This document shows positions 34,986-43,803 of a stretch of 64,000 bases of DNA, piece by piece. This DNA is from Modestobacter sp. VKM Ac-2977. Its GTDB lineage: Bacteria > Actinomycetota > Actinomycetes > Mycobacteriales > Geodermatophilaceae. Below the pieces are notes generated by a model. It made no database searches, was not told the origin of the DNA, and saw only the letters and a program-made list of their open reading frames with translations. Within the stretch, counting starts at the first letter, position 1; every line of letters starts with the position of its first letter. The translations under genes and the position numbers were made by a program. The stretch spans positions 186,001 to 250,000 of the forward strand of contig NZ_JAPVBQ010000001.1 of NCBI RefSeq assembly GCF_026968045.1, written 5' to 3'.

Positions 34986-37424
34986 GTGACCGGGCCGAGG
35001 CCACGACACGGCCACGTCCCGCGGCGCTCCGGTGCCGCCACACCCCGGGGGTCTTCGATCAGCTCCGACCCGACGGGCCGCCCGTCCCCGGGCGGCTCGT
35101 CCGATGCGACACCGGCGGCCGACGGGAGCCCCACGCCGTCCGGCGTCGTGCCCGGCTCGGACGGTGTCGACGACGGCGGTCCCGGAAGGGCACCGGCTGC
35201 AGTGCCCCCGGACGGGCTCCCGGCGGCCGGCGCACCCACCCCGGACAGCGTCGGAGTGCCGCTGCTCGAGCCGCAGGACGATGCGCCGGGTGTCGACCGG
35301 TCCGGTGCGGACGAGGAGGAGCACCCCGGCGCCGGAGCGGTCGGTCAGGTCGCGAAGATCCGCGCGGTGCTGCGGGTGCGCGACTTCCGCAAGCTGTGGC
35401 TGTCCATGTCGCTGTCCAGCTTCGGCGACTGGCTCGGGCTGCTGGCGATCACCGCGACCGCCACCACGCTGGTCGACGGCTACATGGCCAGCAACCTGGC
35501 CCTCAGCGGCGTCCTGCTCTTCCGGCTGCTGCCGGCGCTCGTGCTCGGGCCGCTGGCCGGGGTCTTCGCCGACCGGTTCGACCGACGCAAGACGATGGTG
35601 CTCACCGACCTCTTCCGGTTCGGTCTCTTCGCCTCCATCCCGCTGGTCGACAACCTGATCTGGCTGTTCATCGCGCAGTTCCTCATCGAGGTGATCAGCC
35701 TCTTCTGGACCCCGGCCAAGGACGCCGCCGTCCCGAACATGCTCCGCAAGGACCAGTTGGAGCCGGCCAACCAGCTGTCCCTGATCACCACCTACGGGAT
35801 CACCCCGGTGCTCGCCGGTGGCGTCTACGCGGTGCTCAACACCTCCGGGGGCCGGCTGAGCCAGCTGCTGCCCGGCATGGACCAGATCGCCCTCGCGCTC
35901 TACCTGAACGCGCTGACCTTCCTGGTCGCGGCCGTCGTGATCTGGAACCTGCCCTCGATCAGCGGTCGCCGGGCCGCCCGGCCCGAGGCGCCGCAGGAGA
36001 GCTTCCTCGGCTCGCTGAAGGCGGGCTTCTCCTTCGCCGGGCACACCCGCCTGGTCCGCGGGCTGATCCTCGGGATCACCGGGGCCTTCGCCGCTGCCGG
36101 CGCGATCATCGCGACCGGGCAGTTCTACGTGAACGACCTCGGTGGGGGGCAGGCGGCCTACGGGCTGCTGTTCGGGGCGGTCTTCGTCGGCCTCGGCCTG
36201 GGCATCGGCCTGGGCCCCAGCATCGCCCACGACCTCGCCCGGGAGCGGATCTTCGGGGTGGCCATCGTCGGCGCCGGGATCGCCGTGCTGTTCATGTCGT
36301 GGATCGCCACGTTGTGGGTGGCGCTGCTGCTGGTCGTGCTGATGGGCTTCTTCGCCGGCATCGCCTACCTGGCCGGCTTCACCCTGCTCGGGACGGAGGT
36401 CGACGACGCGATCCGCGGCCGCACGTTCGCCATCGTCCAGTCCCTCGTCCGCGCCTCGCTGATCCTCTCCCTCGCGACGGTGCCGATCGGTGTGGGCGTG
36501 ATCGGCCAGAACCAGGTCGACGTCGGCGTCCTGACCCTGGCGGTCACCGGGGAGCGGGTCATGCTGTTCGTCGCCGGCCTGCTGGCCGTCGGCGTCGGCG
36601 TGGTCGCCTACCGGCAGATGGACGACGGCCGGCCGGTGCCGCTGCTGGCCGACGTCGTCACCGCCCTGCGCCGGGACACCACCGCGCGGCGCCGACTGGC
36701 CGGCGGCGGGGTGTTCATCGCCTTCGAGGGCGGCGAGGGGGCGGGCAAGTCGACGCAGGTGCGCCGCCTGCAGGAGTGGCTGACCGGGGAGGGCCTGGTC
36801 GCCCGGACCACCCGCGAACCGGGCGGGACGGCGCTGGGCGGGAAGGTCCGGGCGCTCCTGCTGGACCCGGCCAGTGCCGGGCTGTCGCCGCGGGCGGAGG
36901 CCCTGATGTACGCCGCCGACCGCGCGCAGCACGTGCACGACGTCCTCCGCCCGGCACTGGACGCCGGCGAGGTGGTGATCACCGACCGGTTCGTGGACAG
37001 CTCGCTGGCCTACCAGGGCGCCGGGCGCACGATCCCGATGGACGACGTCCGCTCGATCTCCCGCTGGGCCACCCAGGGGTTGCGGCCGGAGCTCACCCTG
37101 CTCCTGGACCTGCCGCCCGAGGTCGGCCTGGCCCGGGCCCGCGGGCGGGCCGCGGCAGACCGGCTGGAGTCGGAGTCGCTGGACTTCCACCAGCGGGTCC
37201 GCCGCACGTTCCTCGCCCTGGCCGAGGCCGAGCCCGACCGCTACCTGGTGCTCGACGCCCGCCGGCCGCCGGAGGAGATCGCCGCCGCCATCCGCACCCG
37301 GGTGAGCGTGCTGCTGGAGGGCCTGCCGCTGCAGCAGCTCACGGCCGACGTCCCGGTGCCGCACAGCCGCCGCGGCGGCGACCACGTCGTCCAGACCGGG
37401 TCGACGCCGGACCTGCACCCCTGA
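34986..37424 (+). CDS. tmk: MFS transporter - thymidylate kinase fusion
   Basis: 812-aa two-domain protein. Residues 1-115 are Pro/Ser/Asp-rich and disordered. About 120-550 form a 12-helix MFS domain (VFADRFDRRKTM after helix 2). About 575-785 form a dTMP kinase with P-loop FIAFEGGEGAGKST, DRFVDSSLAYQG and TREPGGTALG. The kinase makes dTDP from dTMP. This fusion is known in several actinobacteria from memory; why it is fused to a transporter is unclear. No separate tmk is in the window. GTG start; a start at about codon 115 would lose only the disordered leader. Confidence 0.9.
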   Translation: MTGPRPRHGHVPRRSGAATPRGSSISSDPTGRPSPGGSSDATPAADGSPTPSGVVPGSDGVDDGGPGRAPAAVPPDGLPAAGAPTPDSVGVPLLEPQDDAPGVDRSGADEEEHPGAGAVGQVAKIRAVLRVRDFRKLWLSMSLSSFGDWLGLLAITATATTLVDGYMASNLALSGVLLFRLLPALVLGPLAGVFADRFDRRKTMVLTDLFRFGLFASIPLVDNLIWLFIAQFLIEVISLFWTPAKDAAVPNMLRKDQLEPANQLSLITTYGITPVLAGGVYAVLNTSGGRLSQLLPGMDQIALALYLNALTFLVAAVVIWNLPSISGRRAARPEAPQESFLGSLKAGFSFAGHTRLVRGLILGITGAFAAAGAIIATGQFYVNDLGGGQAAYGLLFGAVFVGLGLGIGLGPSIAHDLARERIFGVAIVGAGIAVLFMSWIATLWVALLLVVLMGFFAGIAYLAGFTLLGTEVDDAIRGRTFAIVQSLVRASLILSLATVPIGVGVIGQNQVDVGVLTLAVTGERVMLFVAGLLAVGVGVVAYRQMDDGRPVPLLADVVTALRRDTTARRRLAGGGVFIAFEGGEGAGKSTQVRRLQEWLTGEGLVARTTREPGGTALGGKVRALLLDPASAGLSPRAEALMYAADRAQHVHDVLRPALDAGEVVITDRFVDSSLAYQGAGRTIPMDDVRSISRWATQGLRPELTLLLDLPPEVGLARARGRAAADRLESESLDFHQRVRRTFLALAEAEPDRYLVLDARRPPEEIAAAIRTRVSVLLEGLPLQQLTADVPVPHSRRGGDHVVQTGSTPDLHP

Positions 37425-38729: not shown

Positions 38730-38802
38730 GCCGCCTTAGCTCAGTCGGTAGAGCGTCTCACTCGTAATGAGAAGGTCGTCGGTTCGATTCCGACAGGCGG
38801 CT
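38730..38802 (+). tRNA. tRNA-Thr (anticodon CGT)
   Basis: Acceptor GCCGCCT pairs with AGGCGGC, the D arm is GCTC/GAGC, the anticodon stem is TCTCA/TGAGA around loop CTCGTAA, and the T arm is GTCGG/CCGAC with TTCGATT. Anticodon CGT at 38763-38765 reads ACG threonine. CCA is not encoded. The 3' half from 38761 is duplicated at 43761, showing it as the attachment site of an integrated element; the intact copy is the left one. Confidence 0.96.
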
Positions 38803-38803
38803 C
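38761..38803 (+). repeat. attL: left 43-bp direct repeat (inside tRNA-Thr)
   Basis: Begins CTCGTAATGAGAAGGTCGTC in the anticodon loop and ends one base past the tRNA. Identical to 43761-43803; the flanking bases differ on both sides. Confidence 0.93.
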
Positions 38804-39176
38804 GCATCTGACCAGCGTATTCGCCGTCTGTCAGCTCGAGCAAGGGCCCGTTCTGGGCCGACTGGGCACGGAATGGGCACGGGACCGTTCGGGGTCACCG
38901 TCCGAGCTGGACTGTGGCCACGCGCAGTCGGCCTTGCGCGAGAGCCCTCGGGAACCGTCGGAGCGAGCGGTGACACCGCCAGGGGTCCGTTCGGTCGTCG
39001 GTCACGGCAGCCCGCTCGCCCGCTCGGTCTCAGTGGTGGGCTGACGTCGGCGCCCGTCGCGACTCTTGAGCCACTGGGCAAATCCGGCGCTATGCGTCTA
39101 CCTCCAGTCGGAGCGTCGCTGGCCCTCGTCGCGCCGTGTATCCACGGGCGCCCGACCTGGGTAATATTGAGTACGT
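38804..39176. other. Gene-free left end of the element, with a -10-like box
   Basis: No convincing gene is visible in these 373 bases. GTAATATTGAG at 39161-39171 holds a TAATAT -10 box nine bases before the GTG of the next gene, consistent with a leaderless transcript for the cargo operon. A matching -35 is not clear. Confidence 0.5.
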
Positions 39177-39959
39177 GTGGTCTACAGGCAGGCGGAACGC
39201 TCAGTGACTGCCCCCGGGCAGAGTCATAGGTACGCCAACCCACCCATCGAGGAGGGGTTGTGTCAGATCACGTTCGCTCAGCCGCTTCCTTGGTCTGTAG
39301 CGACGCCTGGCCGCCTGCATGAAGCACTCAAGGGTGCGTATCCAGCGGAGCCTGAGGCGCAGGATCAAGTAGCGGCCTCACTGCAATTGCCTCCGAACGA
39401 GACTGGTCCGACGTTCGCGTTCAATCGAGGCCCGCAGCGCTTCGTTTTCAAGGACGAGTCCGGAACGCGACTCCTGATAGCTAGTTCGCATACCTTGAGC
39501 GTTAACAGTCTCCGTCCCTATGAGGGATGGGACCGCTTGCGCGTTCGACTCCGAGAAGCTCTGGAGACGGTTACTCGGGTCACTGGTGTACAACCGGTGG
39601 GGGAAGTGAGTCTTCGCTATATCAATCGAATAGTTGTCCGCGAGCCGCGCTTTGACTCCGACACCTATTTCCGCCTTCGAGTCCGCACTGCAGAGGACGG
39701 CAAAGCTAGCTTTGTGGGCTTCTTGCACCGCGTCGAGTCTGTGTTGACCGACGGAGTGACTAACGTGACCTCCACATTTGCGACGATCGACGCCCCTCCA
39801 GAAGAGAACGCGTTTCTCCTGGATCTTGATTTCCGGCGACCCATCCTGGGACTGGCCGATGCTGCGTCGATTCTTGAGATCGCGGATGAACTCAAAGTGA
39901 GAGAAAATGCAGAGTTCGAGAGCTCGATTACGGACGCGACAAGGGAGTTGTTCCGATGA
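39177..39959 (+). CDS. TIGR04255-family protein, first gene of island cargo operon
   Basis: 260-aa soluble protein. YANPPIEEGLCQITF near residue 20 followed by LPW and TPGRLHEALKGAYP is the start signature of the sporadically distributed TIGR04255 family, and VGEVSLRYINRIVV mid-protein is also typical. Function is unknown for the family. The GTG start is nine bases after a TAATAT box; a GTG 27 bases later is an alternative. Codon use is less GC-biased than flanking genes, indicating transfer. Its stop overlaps the next ATG. Confidence 0.78.
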   Translation: MVYRQAERSVTAPGQSHRYANPPIEEGLCQITFAQPLPWSVATPGRLHEALKGAYPAEPEAQDQVAASLQLPPNETGPTFAFNRGPQRFVFKDESGTRLLIASSHTLSVNSLRPYEGWDRLRVRLREALETVTRVTGVQPVGEVSLRYINRIVVREPRFDSDTYFRLRVRTAEDGKASFVGFLHRVESVLTDGVTNVTSTFATIDAPPEENAFLLDLDFRRPILGLADAASILEIADELKVRENAEFESSITDATRELFR

Positions 39960-40312
39960 GTCAGGTGACGCAACGTCAAGGGTCGGTGAGCGACTACATT
40001 CTGGCGTCGGTAGGTTTCGTACCGCGGCTCCTTGGTATGCCGAGCGCGCTGGGGTCGGGTGAACGGCACCATGGGGAGACCCTTGTTTATAGACGAGATC
40101 TGTTGCGCCGCGTTGAGTGCCACCTCGCTGACATCAACTATGTAATTGATGGCCTTGTCGAGTCGTCGGTACTCGCAGACATAATATTTGTTGAGGGCCC
40201 TGACCACGAGCCCTACGCCGACGCGTATACGTGGGAACCAGTCGAGCTAGAGCTGTCTGAGACGACTGTGGGCGACGCCGTTGCTGACGAGGCCCCAGAA
40301 ATCTGGCGCTGA
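39956..40312 (+). CDS. Hypothetical 118-aa protein, second gene of island cargo operon
   Basis: No family recognised. The N-terminus is MSQVTQRQGSVSDYILASVG, the middle has YRRDLLRRVECHLADINYVI, and the C-terminal 30 residues are acidic (ELELSETTVGDAVADEAPEI). No signal peptide or membrane helix is seen. The ATG overlaps the TIGR04255 stop (ATGA), implying coupled expression and perhaps a complex. It could be a small bridging or regulatory subunit; this is inference. Confidence 0.75.
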   Translation: MSQVTQRQGSVSDYILASVGFVPRLLGMPSALGSGERHHGETLVYRRDLLRRVECHLADINYVIDGLVESSVLADIIFVEGPDHEPYADAYTWEPVELELSETTVGDAVADEAPEIWR

Positions 40313-40320
40313 GGCTGCAA

Positions 40321-40872
40321 GTGAGCGATACGGGGGACTCTCCTCCGCCAGGGGCGGATTGGTACATAGATTGCGACAGCTCTCTCGAGCAGGGAGATGT
40401 CCTCTTCGGCTTTCGGGTAGTGGAACCGGTCTGGCAAAGTGGTGCCGACTACACCTTTCGGGCCAAGAATGCTAACGTTGTGGTTCTGACGCAGACGTGC
40501 GATATTCCAAAACGAGCGCAGAACTCTGTTCTAGTTGCTGAGGTCCATGACTACGACGCCCTAGTAGCCGCGGGGCAGCAACACCTCAAGAAGCGTGAAA
40601 TTAAGGAGGCTTTGGCGCGCGGAACGACTATCGCAGAGTTTCTGCTACCGCCGACGATCGACGGGCGTCTGTCGTGGTCGGTTGTCAGTTTTCGCGACAT
40701 CTTCGTCCTGCCGAAGTTGGCGGTCATCTCGGCAGTCGAGGCCGGGTCTCCTCTGCGCTTGACGAGCCCGTACAAGGAGTATCTTTCGCAGGCCTTTGGT
40801 CGATTCGTGATGCGCGTTGGATTGCCGGCAACACTGTCTCAGTTTGAGAAATACACGCCGGGGTCAACCTGA
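40321..40872 (+). CDS. Hypothetical 183-aa protein with TQTCDI motif, third gene of island cargo operon
   Basis: The protein has EQGDVLFGFRVVEP near residue 25, NVVVLTQTCDIPKRA near residue 55 and LTSPYKEYLSQAFGRFVMRV near the C-terminus. The VxLTQTCDI segment with a lone Cys-Asp is a pattern I have seen in uncharacterised proteins of many bacteria, sometimes beside TIGR04255 genes, but I know no function. GTG start eight bases after the preceding stop. Base composition is AT-rich like the two genes before it. Confidence 0.75.
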   Translation: MSDTGDSPPPGADWYIDCDSSLEQGDVLFGFRVVEPVWQSGADYTFRAKNANVVVLTQTCDIPKRAQNSVLVAEVHDYDALVAAGQQHLKKREIKEALARGTTIAEFLLPPTIDGRLSWSVVSFRDIFVLPKLAVISAVEAGSPLRLTSPYKEYLSQAFGRFVMRVGLPATLSQFEKYTPGST

Positions 40873-41009: not shown

Positions 41010-41510
41010 TCACATCGCGGCGAGAAGTTCGATCCCGTGTAACCTGGCGATCCGTTGAGCGATGTCGGCCGTGGGCACCTCGAGGCGCTCGGCGGCTGCC
41101 CGGGCATAGATGACGACGGCGTAGAGCGCGTACGTCCACAGCGGGAACTGCCACCAGCCGGTGTCGCTGAGCAGGTCCGGCTGCAGCCCTCCGCGCATGC
41201 AGGCGGCCGCGTAGAGCGCGTACTGGCTGTTGCGCTGGTCGGTGAGGCCGCGGAAGGTCACCTCTGGCAGGTGCTGCTCGCGCAGCCCCGCATAAGCCAG
41301 TGGTGGGGCGCCAGCGGGGCAGGCAAGCTCCAGTGCGGTCACCGCCAGGTCGAGCATCGCTACGTCCGGCGTGAACGAACCGGGCACGTGGAACACCGCC
41401 ACGGCGTCGACGAGGTCCGGTGGAGCGTCGCCGGCCATGAGACCTCGTAGCAGAGACACCTGCGCTTGACGGTGCAGGTCGTCTGGGTCGACTCCCGCCC
41501 GGTTCGCCAT
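41010..41510 (-). CDS. Hypothetical 166-aa protein
   Basis: Open frame with host-like GC. It starts MANRAGVDPDDLHRQAQVSL, is Ala/Leu-rich, and ends ADIAQRIARLHGIELLAAM. It includes WWQFPLWTYALYAVVIYARA, which could be a buried or membrane helix. No family recognised. It is transcribed against the cargo operon and could be a separate accessory gene of the element. A possible start with weak upstream signals makes the exact 5' end uncertain. Confidence 0.6.
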   Translation of the reverse strand: MANRAGVDPDDLHRQAQVSLLRGLMAGDAPPDLVDAVAVFHVPGSFTPDVAMLDLAVTALELACPAGAPPLAYAGLREQHLPEVTFRGLTDQRNSQYALYAAACMRGGLQPDLLSDTGWWQFPLWTYALYAVVIYARAAAERLEVPTADIAQRIARLHGIELLAAM

Positions 41511-41891
41511 GTCCGCAGTCTTCCCCGTGGCAGCCTGGTCAGTTGCCGACCTGCCCCGCCGATCGCGGCACGACGGACCGCGACTCCTGCGGCGTCAGTG
41601 TCCATCGCGGGCTCCATCCCGTGGCGTGCGATGCAGACGGTGCCGGGCGCAGGTCACGGCCGAAGAACAAGCAAGGCGCCGCCGAACACACCTCTTGCAC
41701 CTCGGCCGACGCGATTCGTTGTGACGAGTTCCGCGGTCCCACGCCGCGCGGTGTCCCCCCGACTGCAGCGCCGGGGAACGGGTGCGACTGAGTCGACCAA
41801 TGCATCGCCGCCGTCAGCTACGGGCCGTCCACGGCGCCTTCTTGGGCAGGCCTGCCCCGCTCCAGGCGGCCCGGCAGCAGGGAGGACGTGC
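41511..41891. other. Gene-free stretch inside the element
   Basis: I see no supported gene, RNA or repeat in these 381 bases. Open frames on both strands have no family features. It separates the divergent hypothetical and excisionase-like genes and should hold their promoters. Confidence 0.4.
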
Positions 41892-42278
41892 GTGATCGAC
41901 GAGCAGCTGACCATCCCGGGGGGCCCGTCGGACGGCGGGCGACGCGGCACCTGCAGTCCTCGACCGCCTCGTCCGAGGCTGGTGCCCCCTCAGGACTCGA
42001 AGGACGTCACCGTGGACGTCTCCAGTCGGGGCTGCGACAGCCACTCCGCGCGGCCGCGTGCGGTGGCAGTCCACGACGTCGACGACCTCGGGGTCCGCAC
42101 CGACTTAGTGACCGCCTGCCGCATCGCGCTTGGCATCGGGTCAACGACGGCCTACGCGCTGGCCGGCCGGGACGAGCTCCCGTTCCCCGCCTACCGAGTC
42201 GGCCGGCAGTGGGTGGTGCCAACCGCCGGTCTCCGTGCATTCCTCGGGCTGCCGCAGCAACGGTCAGCTCAGGGGTGA
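41892..42278 (+). CDS. Excisionase-like helix-turn-helix protein
   Basis: 128-aa protein. The C-terminal 55 residues, VTACRIALGIGSTTAYALAG then ELPFPAYRVGRQWVVPTAGL, are the winged-helix fold of AlpA/MerR-type excisionases. The N-terminal 70 residues are Pro/Arg/Ser-rich and look disordered. The GTG start has GGAGG six bases upstream. It ends 18 bases from the convergent integrase stop. It likely directs excision or represses element genes. Confidence 0.8.
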   Translation: MIDEQLTIPGGPSDGGRRGTCSPRPPRPRLVPPQDSKDVTVDVSSRGCDSHSARPRAVAVHDVDDLGVRTDLVTACRIALGIGSTTAYALAGRDELPFPAYRVGRQWVVPTAGLRAFLGLPQQRSAQG

Positions 42279-42296: not shown

Positions 42297-43514
42297 TCAC
42301 CTCGACTGGTGCCCTCCCGATCCGCGCGGGACGAGGGCGGCGGCGGCCTCGGCGGCTTGTCGGCCCACGCCCTCCAGCAGATGTGTGTAGGTGTCGGACG
42401 TGATCCGGATGCCGGAGTGGCCGAGACGTTTCGAGACGACGGTCATTTCGACGCCGGCCGCGAGCATGATCGACGCCTGCCCGTGCCGGAGGTCGTGAAG
42501 CCGCACCCGTCGCAGCCCGGCATCAGCGACGAGAGCCTGAAAGGTCTTGGAGACGACCTCGGGCTTGAGGTAGGAGCCGTCCTCGCGGGCGAAGACCAGG
42601 TCGTGGTCCTCGTACGCCGCGCCGAACGCGACCTTCTCCACGTCCTGCTGCAGCCGATGCGCGATCAACGAACCCACCGTGGCGGCGTCGAGATCCACCC
42701 GCCGGTCCTCGCCGCTGGCGGTCTTCGGTTGCCCGACCACGCTCTCGTATCCGACTTGCACGACGGACTGGCGCACCCACAGCACCCGCTTGTCCAGGTC
42801 GACGTCACCCCAACGGAGGCCGACGACCTCACCGCGACGGAGCCCTGTCATCGCCAGCACCTCGAACAACACCCCCAGCCGGTGTCCGGCGGCTAAGTCG
42901 AGGAAGGCGCCGAGTTCTTCGGGTTCCCACGGCCGGACCTTGGGCCGGCGCATGGGTTCCAGCTCGGCCAGTGCCGCGGGGTTGTAGGGGAGGACGCGGC
43001 GACTCACGGCGTCGTTGAGAGCCGAGCGCAGGGTGGCGTGGATCCGGCGTACCGAGGACGGCGACAGCGGCTTGGATCGCGTGCCCTGCCGGCGCAACGA
43101 AGTCAGCGCCCGGTCGACGTCGTCCACGGTCAGGTCCGTGAGCCGGTAGTGGCCGAGCAACGGGATCCAGTAGTCCTGCAGGTGCTGCTGGGTGTGCAAC
43201 GCGGTCGACGGGCGGAACCGGCCGGCGTCTTTCTTCCGCTTCAGCCAGCCCTCGAGGTAACCGGCCACTGTGACGCGGCGCTGGTCCTGCACCCGCACGC
43301 CCTGTCCCGTCGCCGTTAACGACGCCTGAAGCGCGGCCCGGGCGTCGGCGGCGGTCTCGTAACCGCCTCGCCGGACCTGCCGCCGCTTTCCGGTCGGCTC
43401 GCGGACGTCGTGCACGAAGAACCATGACCCGTGCCGCTTGGCGCAGTTCTTCCGCCGGCCGGCCGCATCGGGCACCGGTGGGCACGGGCACCGCTTGAAC
43501 ACCGTCCCGGTCAC
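42297..43514 (-). CDS. int: Tyrosine-type site-specific integrase
   Basis: 405-aa recombinase. A Cys-rich N-terminal segment (KRCPCPPVPDAAGRRKNCAK) precedes an AP2-like and SAM-like DNA-binding region (VAGYLEGWLKRKKDAGRFRP). The catalytic domain has Arg in MTGLRRGEVVGL, HDLRHGQAS, KRLGHSG and the nucleophile Tyr in SDTYTHLLEG near residue 375. GTG at 43514 was chosen for GGAGGGAG a few bases upstream. It faces away from attR, 246 bases off, and should act on the 43-bp tRNA-Thr core. Confidence 0.95.
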   Translation of the reverse strand: MTGTVFKRCPCPPVPDAAGRRKNCAKRHGSWFFVHDVREPTGKRRQVRRGGYETAADARAALQASLTATGQGVRVQDQRRVTVAGYLEGWLKRKKDAGRFRPSTALHTQQHLQDYWIPLLGHYRLTDLTVDDVDRALTSLRRQGTRSKPLSPSSVRRIHATLRSALNDAVSRRVLPYNPAALAELEPMRRPKVRPWEPEELGAFLDLAAGHRLGVLFEVLAMTGLRRGEVVGLRWGDVDLDKRVLWVRQSVVQVGYESVVGQPKTASGEDRRVDLDAATVGSLIAHRLQQDVEKVAFGAAYEDHDLVFAREDGSYLKPEVVSKTFQALVADAGLRRVRLHDLRHGQASIMLAAGVEMTVVSKRLGHSGIRITSDTYTHLLEGVGRQAAEAAAALVPRGSGGHQSR

Positions 43515-43760
43515 TGGCCGCTCCCTCCGCTCCGGCCGGCAGCCCACCGCCTCGAGCCGTCACCTGCAGTGGCAGGCGTCAGCAAGGCAGGGGCCGCTGA
43601 CACCGGCGCAGCAGGACCCGGACTGGGCACCAGATGGTCACGCCGCATCCGGCGGTAGGTGGTCTTGGCCGGTGGAAGGCGGTCCTTGATACCGTCGCTG
43701 AGCTGGACAAACGGTCTGGCACGGCGGCACCCGGTCATGCCTAGTGGAGCCCCGGTGGCG

Positions 43761-43803
43761 CTCGTAATGAGAAGGTCGTCGGTTCGATTCCGACAGGCGG
43801 CTC
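43761..43803 (+). repeat. attR: right 43-bp direct repeat
   Basis: Exact copy of 38761-38803 without the 5' half of the tRNA. It marks the right boundary of the element. Host sequence leading to ppa follows. Confidence 0.93.

Follow-up and report, generated by a model that had tools for sequence, protein, structure and literature searches.

A TIGR04255 gene, a small middle gene and a predicted MazF-fold gene as a probable tripartite toxin-antitoxin module on a 5-kb tRNA element of Modestobacter

The window analysed here, a stretch of 64,000 nucleotides from Modestobacter sp. VKM Ac-2977 (contig NZ_JAPVBQ010000001.1, positions 186,001 to 250,000), contains a three-gene operon on a small element that is integrated at a tRNA gene. 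The operon probably represents a tripartite toxin-antitoxin module (estimated probability about 0.68), in which a 183-aa protein would be the toxin, a 118-aa protein the antitoxin, and a protein of the TIGR04255 family a third component that stabilises or senses the antitoxin. The three genes are:

39204..39959, + strand, TIGR04255 family protein, 251 aa, in an open reading frame (ORF) that is open from 39177 (NCBIfam E 2.4e-31; AlphaFold2 (AF2) model, pLDDT 91.5)
39956..40312, + strand, middle protein, 118 aa, predicted antitoxin with C-terminus DEAPEIWR (from its position and the modular alignment of relatives)
40321..40872, + strand, 'TQTCDI' protein, 183 aa, predicted MazF-fold toxin (AF2 model, pLDDT 89.9; Foldseek and VIA matches)

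An earlier reading of the locus, made from the sequence only, had described these genes as tightly spaced, AT-richer than the host and equipped with their own TAATAT promoter, the first gene beginning at 39177. The spacing and composition are borne out: the ORFs 39177–39959 and 39956–40312 overlap by an ATGA, eight bases separate the latter from the ORF 40321–40872, and the GC content is 57–60% over the operon (1-kb intervals) versus 70–82% in intervals clear of it (30–50 kb), with 64–68% in those straddling its edges. The promoter and the start codon have to be revised. TAATAT is present at 39162–39167, but a sigma-70-type scan finds no promoter there, and the GTG at 39204 is the most likely start of the first gene, because the five proteins closest to it have lengths of 251 aa (four) or 252 aa (one). 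A palindrome search found nothing in the window; AT-rich palindromes were seen, without a control, upstream of some archaeal relative loci. The operon has the layout that characterises type II toxin-antitoxin loci, its genes being small, adjacent, co-directional, sporadic and mobile. Hits that share a longest contig of 2,430 bp, and are taken from this shared length to lie on one contig, match the three proteins with 94% (P0026), 81% (P0002) and 90% (P0003) identity, which indicates that the middle gene is the most diverged of the three there.

The identity of the first gene product, previously recognised from family motifs, is confirmed by NCBIfam with 109.5 bits at a curated cut-off of 30; the description of this model ('sporadTIGR04255') gives no function. 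The predicted structure tentatively shows a tandem helix-grip fold resembling the TATA-binding protein (TBP), and although this fold looks duplicated, no internal sequence duplication was found in the protein. Neither the 118-aa nor the 183-aa protein has a Pfam or NCBIfam match at E≤1, including any match of the latter to the PemK/MazF family PF02452. The modelled structure of the 183-aa TQTCDI protein is matched by MazF, Kid and CcdB in Foldseek and VIA searches, and a MazF/CcdB toxin fold is predicted for it. Residues Q58, C60, D61, F124, P150, E153, R165 and V166 are invariant in the TQTCDI family. Sequence searches against solved structures with A1 (a profile of 24 TQTCDI proteins), A2, A5, the middle protein of locus L202 and the toxin of locus L179 gave nothing usable.

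In a species collection, 309 of 326 candidate stretches encode TQTCDI relatives, the best 80 of which were kept; the TQTCDI locus set comprises 86 loci (L003–L088), the window's own L001 and L002 having been dropped. A TIGR04255 gene lies directly upstream of the TQTCDI gene, on the same strand, in 50 of these 86 loci; 31 others are without TIGR04255, two show it weakly and three have too little upstream sequence. This recurrence argues that the genes are associated beyond chance. A simple gene caller places a small gene (89–202 aa) between the two in 43 of the 50 loci, L068 and L073 having been left out ahead of the count. The expectation that the three genes co-occur as a unit is thus met in both bacteria and archaea. 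The same sequence-only reading had held that unlinked homologues would speak against such a unit, and on this point the outcome is divided: linkage is kept for the TQTCDI gene, but TIGR04255 is far more widely distributed (31 of 396 genomes of the window's phylum, compared with 7 of 396 for the TQTCDI profile) and outside the TQTCDI range stands mostly beside other toxin-like genes, or beside none that is recognised. Within the family the TQTCDI gene occurs in 2 of 112 genomes, and in no other genome of the genus. By their record titles, the 80 relative loci come from Actinomycetota, Planctomycetota, Bacillota, Treponema, Heimdallarchaeota, Lokiarchaeota and Methanothrix, among others, although metagenome bins may carry wrong labels. 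On viral contigs, L120 carries all three genes, L119 has the first and third genes and an uncertain call for the middle one, and L121 is without TIGR04255; these occurrences fit mobility. A plasmid search with the TQTCDI protein gave no match, and a sequence search of viral contigs with the 118-aa protein found no relatives. At TQTCDI loci of planctomycete-type bins without TIGR04255 (L014, L017, L019, L024 and L045), large genes of ~470–730 aa flank the TQTCDI gene on one or both sides.

The wider distribution of TIGR04255 provides a second view of the unit. Scans with the TIGR04255 query matched, besides the window's phylum, 12 of 151 genomes in the phylum of L059's genome, 23 of 148 in the archaeal phylum of L074's genome, 20 of 249 in the phylum of L043's genome and 3 of 199 in that of L067's genome. 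The 101 matches correspond to 95 loci, 92 of which were classified, the TIGR04255 gene not being found by profile in the other three. A toxin-like gene lies downstream of TIGR04255 in 64 of the 92: 42 loci have a TQTCDI gene (19) or a remote QGD...C-type relative (23, found as 20 plus 3), ten a HEPN-like gene, ten a member of an unnamed 'SVD' family and two a canonical MazF. Of the other loci, 27 have no recognised toxin and one is truncated. These counts are descriptive, the profiles for the remote, HEPN and SVD types having been built partly from the same loci; a single locus, split in two, accounts for both L192 and L196, and if the window (L109) and L152–L154, which were reached through TQTCDI loci and are not independent, are left out, the proportion becomes 60 of 88. 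The remote relatives are linked to the TQTCDI proteins by profile comparison (probability 97.6%, E 4e-12). A HicA match at L106 remains below cut-off. The SVD family (L090, L116–L118, L163, L164, L167, L170, L207 and L217), with proteins of roughly 116–197 aa as called that follow TIGR04255 and a middle gene, is a candidate toxin family. On a tree of TIGR04255 proteins, 11 changes are required to explain the five toxin labels, the least possible being 4 and the mean after shuffling 40.8, and the two MazF loci are nested among TQTCDI loci in separate sub-clades; toxin type is therefore clustered, yet exchanged. This quickly built tree contains 102 proteins, 58 of them from TQTCDI loci and many picked through that gene, and 48 of its 99 inner branches are weakly supported.

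Exchanges are also visible within the middle protein. In archaeal locus L179 the TQTCDI protein is replaced by a canonical MazF (Pfam MazF, E 1.5e-9, over cut-off), and the accompanying middle protein is 39% identical to that of L181 over 121 columns, most clearly in the N-terminal part, while its C-terminal tail differs. A protein annotated as AbrB/MazE has a similar tail (75% over 20 aa), although at E 0.4 the likeness is only suggestive. The converse is found in the Asgard bins L029 and L055, which are without TIGR04255: here the N-terminus of the middle protein is different and the C-terminal tail is similar. From these two exchanges the simplest reading is that the N-terminal part of the middle protein serves TIGR04255 or DNA and the C-terminal part serves the toxin. 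The tail of the window's protein, DEAPEIWR, is one of those in which an acidic residue shortly precedes a tryptophan, a feature reminiscent of the MazE tail; it is shared by 11 of 43 middle proteins with and 9 of 24 without TIGR04255, and most tails are without it. The longest uncharged run is longer in middle proteins with TIGR04255 (median 13) than in those without (median 9; p 0.0015, uncorrected for relatedness). At L025, L027, L034, L105, L120, L201 and L204 a signal-peptide-like hydrophobic stretch was seen by eye near the N-terminus of the middle protein.

A mechanism may be proposed on this basis. Going by its predicted fold, the 183-aa protein would presumably act on a nucleic acid or on part of the translation or replication machinery, which it would cut or block. 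The acidic, tryptophan-bearing C-terminal tail of the 118-aa antitoxin would plug the toxin, and its N-terminal part would be held by the TIGR04255 protein. By analogy with toxin-antitoxin-chaperone (TAC) systems, the latter would most likely act as a stabiliser or sensor of the antitoxin, such that the lifetime of the antitoxin, and hence the release of the toxin, would depend on it. We tentatively extend this proposal, at less than even odds, to a second, SecB-unrelated class of toxin-antitoxin partner, in which a TBP-like double domain holds antitoxin N-termini, has been paired with four or more kinds of toxin (TQTCDI-type MazF-fold, canonical MazF, HEPN and the unnamed small family) across bacteria and archaea, including Asgard, and probably works as a sensor: once a phage or stress product titrates the TIGR04255 protein, the toxin would be let go.

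Several observations weigh against the toxin-antitoxin reading. A sequence relation between TQTCDI and MazF was considered and rejected (hhalign probabilities 0.1% and 0.7%, and 10.9% for the remote relatives), and the catalytic Arg/Thr positions of MazF are, by eye, not conserved in the TQTCDI proteins. Homology of TIGR04255 to SecB was likewise dismissed, with a profile probability of at most 1.7% against 12 SecB sequences, and SecB is not among the best 50 matches listed in either fold search with TIGR04255. In 27 of the 92 TIGR04255 loci no recognised toxin lies within about 1.5 kb. HEPN at L177 (E 3.7e-5) is the one match over the Pfam cut-off among six HEPN-like proteins scanned, three of the other five matching HEPN below cut-off and two not at all. 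No toxin is annotated adjacent to the AbrB/MazE protein with the similar tail. Tests for a client region gave mixed results, the Kyte-Doolittle test for hydrophobic stretches in the middle proteins reaching p 0.07; uncharged runs beat 95% of shuffles in 12 of 82 TIGR04255-paired proteins, but also in 4 of 21 without TIGR04255. A signal-like hydrophobic stretch as a universal chaperone-client region was abandoned on the outcome of these two tests.

The mobile context of the operon was resolved by comparison with congeners. The features of the element are:

38730..38803, + strand, tRNA-Thr (CGT), found by ARAGORN; integration target, the last 43 bp of which form attL
38761..38803, + strand, attL copy of a 43-bp direct repeat, 100% identical to 43761–43803 at a spacing of 5000
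41010..41510, − strand, 166-aa backbone protein of the element; a similar ORF is present in a congener's sibling element
41466..42278 (ORF bounds), + strand, ORF with a weak helix-turn-helix (about 42129–42245; HTH_17 E 6.7e-4, below cut-off), possible excisionase or regulator
42297..43547, − strand, tyrosine integrase, 416 aa (PF00589, E 6.7e-26)
43761..43803, + strand, attR copy of the 43-bp repeat, a perfect match to attL

Measured between the perfect repeats, the element is exactly 5,000 bp. Its site is empty in G1173 and G1165, the nearest congeners by the left flank (99% and 97% identity, respectively), in which the right flank begins at the base that follows the att site, where the left flank ends. 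Related elements, 79–84% identical in nucleotide sequence over the matching parts, occupy this tRNA in two other congeners, G398 and G403; one of these elements holds a 181-aa ORF and an acetyltransferase-like ORF, and the other has a PIN-like ORF and an IS3-like transposase among its cargo (names given by eye). The empty site and the other cargo of the sibling elements indicate that the operon is exchangeable cargo, in agreement with its earlier description as the cargo of a 5 kb tRNA element. The siblings at this tRNA-Thr (L243 and L245), with their related backbone, point to a small element family. An imperfect 22-bp repeat (82%) lies just inside both ends of the element, at 38860–38881 and 43621–43642, and possibly provides arm sites for the integrase.

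It had been hypothesised that the operon is a defence or conflict system. Its conflict side, in the form of a toxin-antitoxin module, is strengthened by the exchange of toxins and by the MazF fold predicted for the 183-aa protein, but the defence side gains little. An abortive-infection system, in which TIGR04255 would sense a phage product and release the toxin as CmdC does in CmdTAC, is possible, though we give it clearly less than an even chance. It would account for the position on a small mobile element whose siblings carry other cargo such as the PIN-like ORF, for the sporadic distribution in the family and for the presence on the viral contigs L120 and L119, though not L121; restriction-modification genes lie near some relatives, and CmdTAC provides a precedent in the portion of that report consulted (PMC11618068). 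Yet PADLOC 2023 returned no family at E≤1 for the three operon proteins or the 166-aa protein, and a mobile toxin-antitoxin module can persist without defence. Around 17 chosen loci the genes are of mixed kinds, with no control set for comparison: Methylase_S occurs in three and N6_Mtase in one of 116 flanking ORFs (of 118, two middle genes being dropped), these restriction models being matched in PADLOC as well, and many of the 25 Pfam families listed out of 100 are housekeeping. Enrichment in defence islands was rejected on these numbers. The placing of the L022 and L075 modules between hsdS and hsdR, guessed from gene sizes, was found to be wrong. Toxin-antitoxin modules stabilise genomic islands, and the operon might be a plain addiction module that maintains the 5-kb element, or the viral genomes with relatives, and has no other role. 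The locations on an integrating element and on viral contigs agree with this, but the recurring third component is left unexplained, and an integrase family occurs in only 2 of the 116 flanking ORFs, so that no integrating element is apparent within about 6 kb of most of the 17 loci; we regard this explanation as rather improbable.

The third component may instead be a DNA-binding or co-repressor subunit, the TBP-like double domain binding the promoter together with the antitoxin and replacing a DNA-binding domain that is absent from the middle protein. None of the 44 middle proteins paired with TIGR04255 (41 of the 43 relatives, the window, L179 and L202) matches a DNA-binding family at E≤0.01; among those without TIGR04255 (21 of 24 scanned), four match MerR/HTH_17, two of them identical, and one DUF7557. 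Other TIGR04255 modules, however, have helix-turn-helix middle proteins, which breaks this pattern and contradicts a simple replacement of the antitoxin's DNA-binding domain, and we consider such a subunit unlikely. It appears very improbable that, instead of forming a toxin-antitoxin system, the three linked genes work together in metabolism or regulation, with a likeness to the MazF fold that small beta-barrels can show by coincidence. The TQTCDI proteins indeed have no sequence relation to MazF and have invariant residues of their own, but MazF and HEPN-like genes take the same operon position, the tails of the middle proteins are exchanged, and the genes are small and sporadically distributed.

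Compared with known systems, a toxin-antitoxin module with TIGR04255 as third component most closely recalls the TAC systems, such as HigBA-SecB of Mycobacterium tuberculosis and CmdTAC. Both have three genes, a presumed separate partner-specific region in the antitoxin, and one partner family shared by several toxin-antitoxin families; in TAC, according to the part of PMC5105189 consulted, the antitoxins that depend on SecB-like chaperones are HigA, MqsA and, more rarely, HicB. In CmdTAC, as described in the section of PMC11618068 seen, the phage capsid dislodges the chaperone and the toxin is freed. Unlike in TAC, the third component here has no relation to SecB by sequence, so that by this criterion the operon falls outside that class; moreover, the partner is encoded first (TIGR04255-antitoxin-toxin), its presumed binding region is the N-terminal part of the antitoxin instead of a C-terminal ChAD, and the toxins are MazF-fold, HEPN-like or others. 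With MazEF, PemIK and CcdAB the operon shares the predicted fold of the 183-aa protein, the small gene immediately upstream and the acidic, aromatic C-terminal tail of the antitoxin, in which we presume a likeness to MazE, and elsewhere a canonical MazF stands at the corresponding position; the operon differs from them in the lack of detectable sequence relation, the family's own invariant residues and the third gene. HEPN-MNT systems are approached by the HEPN-like proteins (10 of 92 loci by profile; of six scanned, one exceeds the Pfam cut-off), but the gene before HEPN has no Pfam match (L177, scanned singly) and TIGR04255 precedes it. A three-component possibility has been raised for HEPN-MNT (PMC2701414, in the part consulted). 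In the open-licence literature searched TIGR04255 is not mentioned, subscription papers and preprints being outside its scope, and at the level of titles and abstract openings no description of this three-gene arrangement was found.

The proposed module gives a testable function to TIGR04255, a curated family without one, and would add a MazF-fold branch without detectable sequence relation to MazF. It suggests that a third control protein has joined toxin-antitoxin pairs outside the SecB lineage, and the natural toxin swaps mark where the antitoxin can be divided for binding tests. Such a module would escape surveys limited to two-gene systems, a restriction that the NetFlax paper states for itself (PMC10440598, in the part consulted).

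In three genomes of the same order (L092–L094), TIGR04255 genes lie beside a tRNA-like sequence on the coding strand, as judged by eye, and no toxin partner was recognised there. Outside the element, the long ORF 34986–37424 appears by eye to encode an MFS-type membrane transporter fused to a thymidylate-kinase-like end (FEGGEGAGKST).
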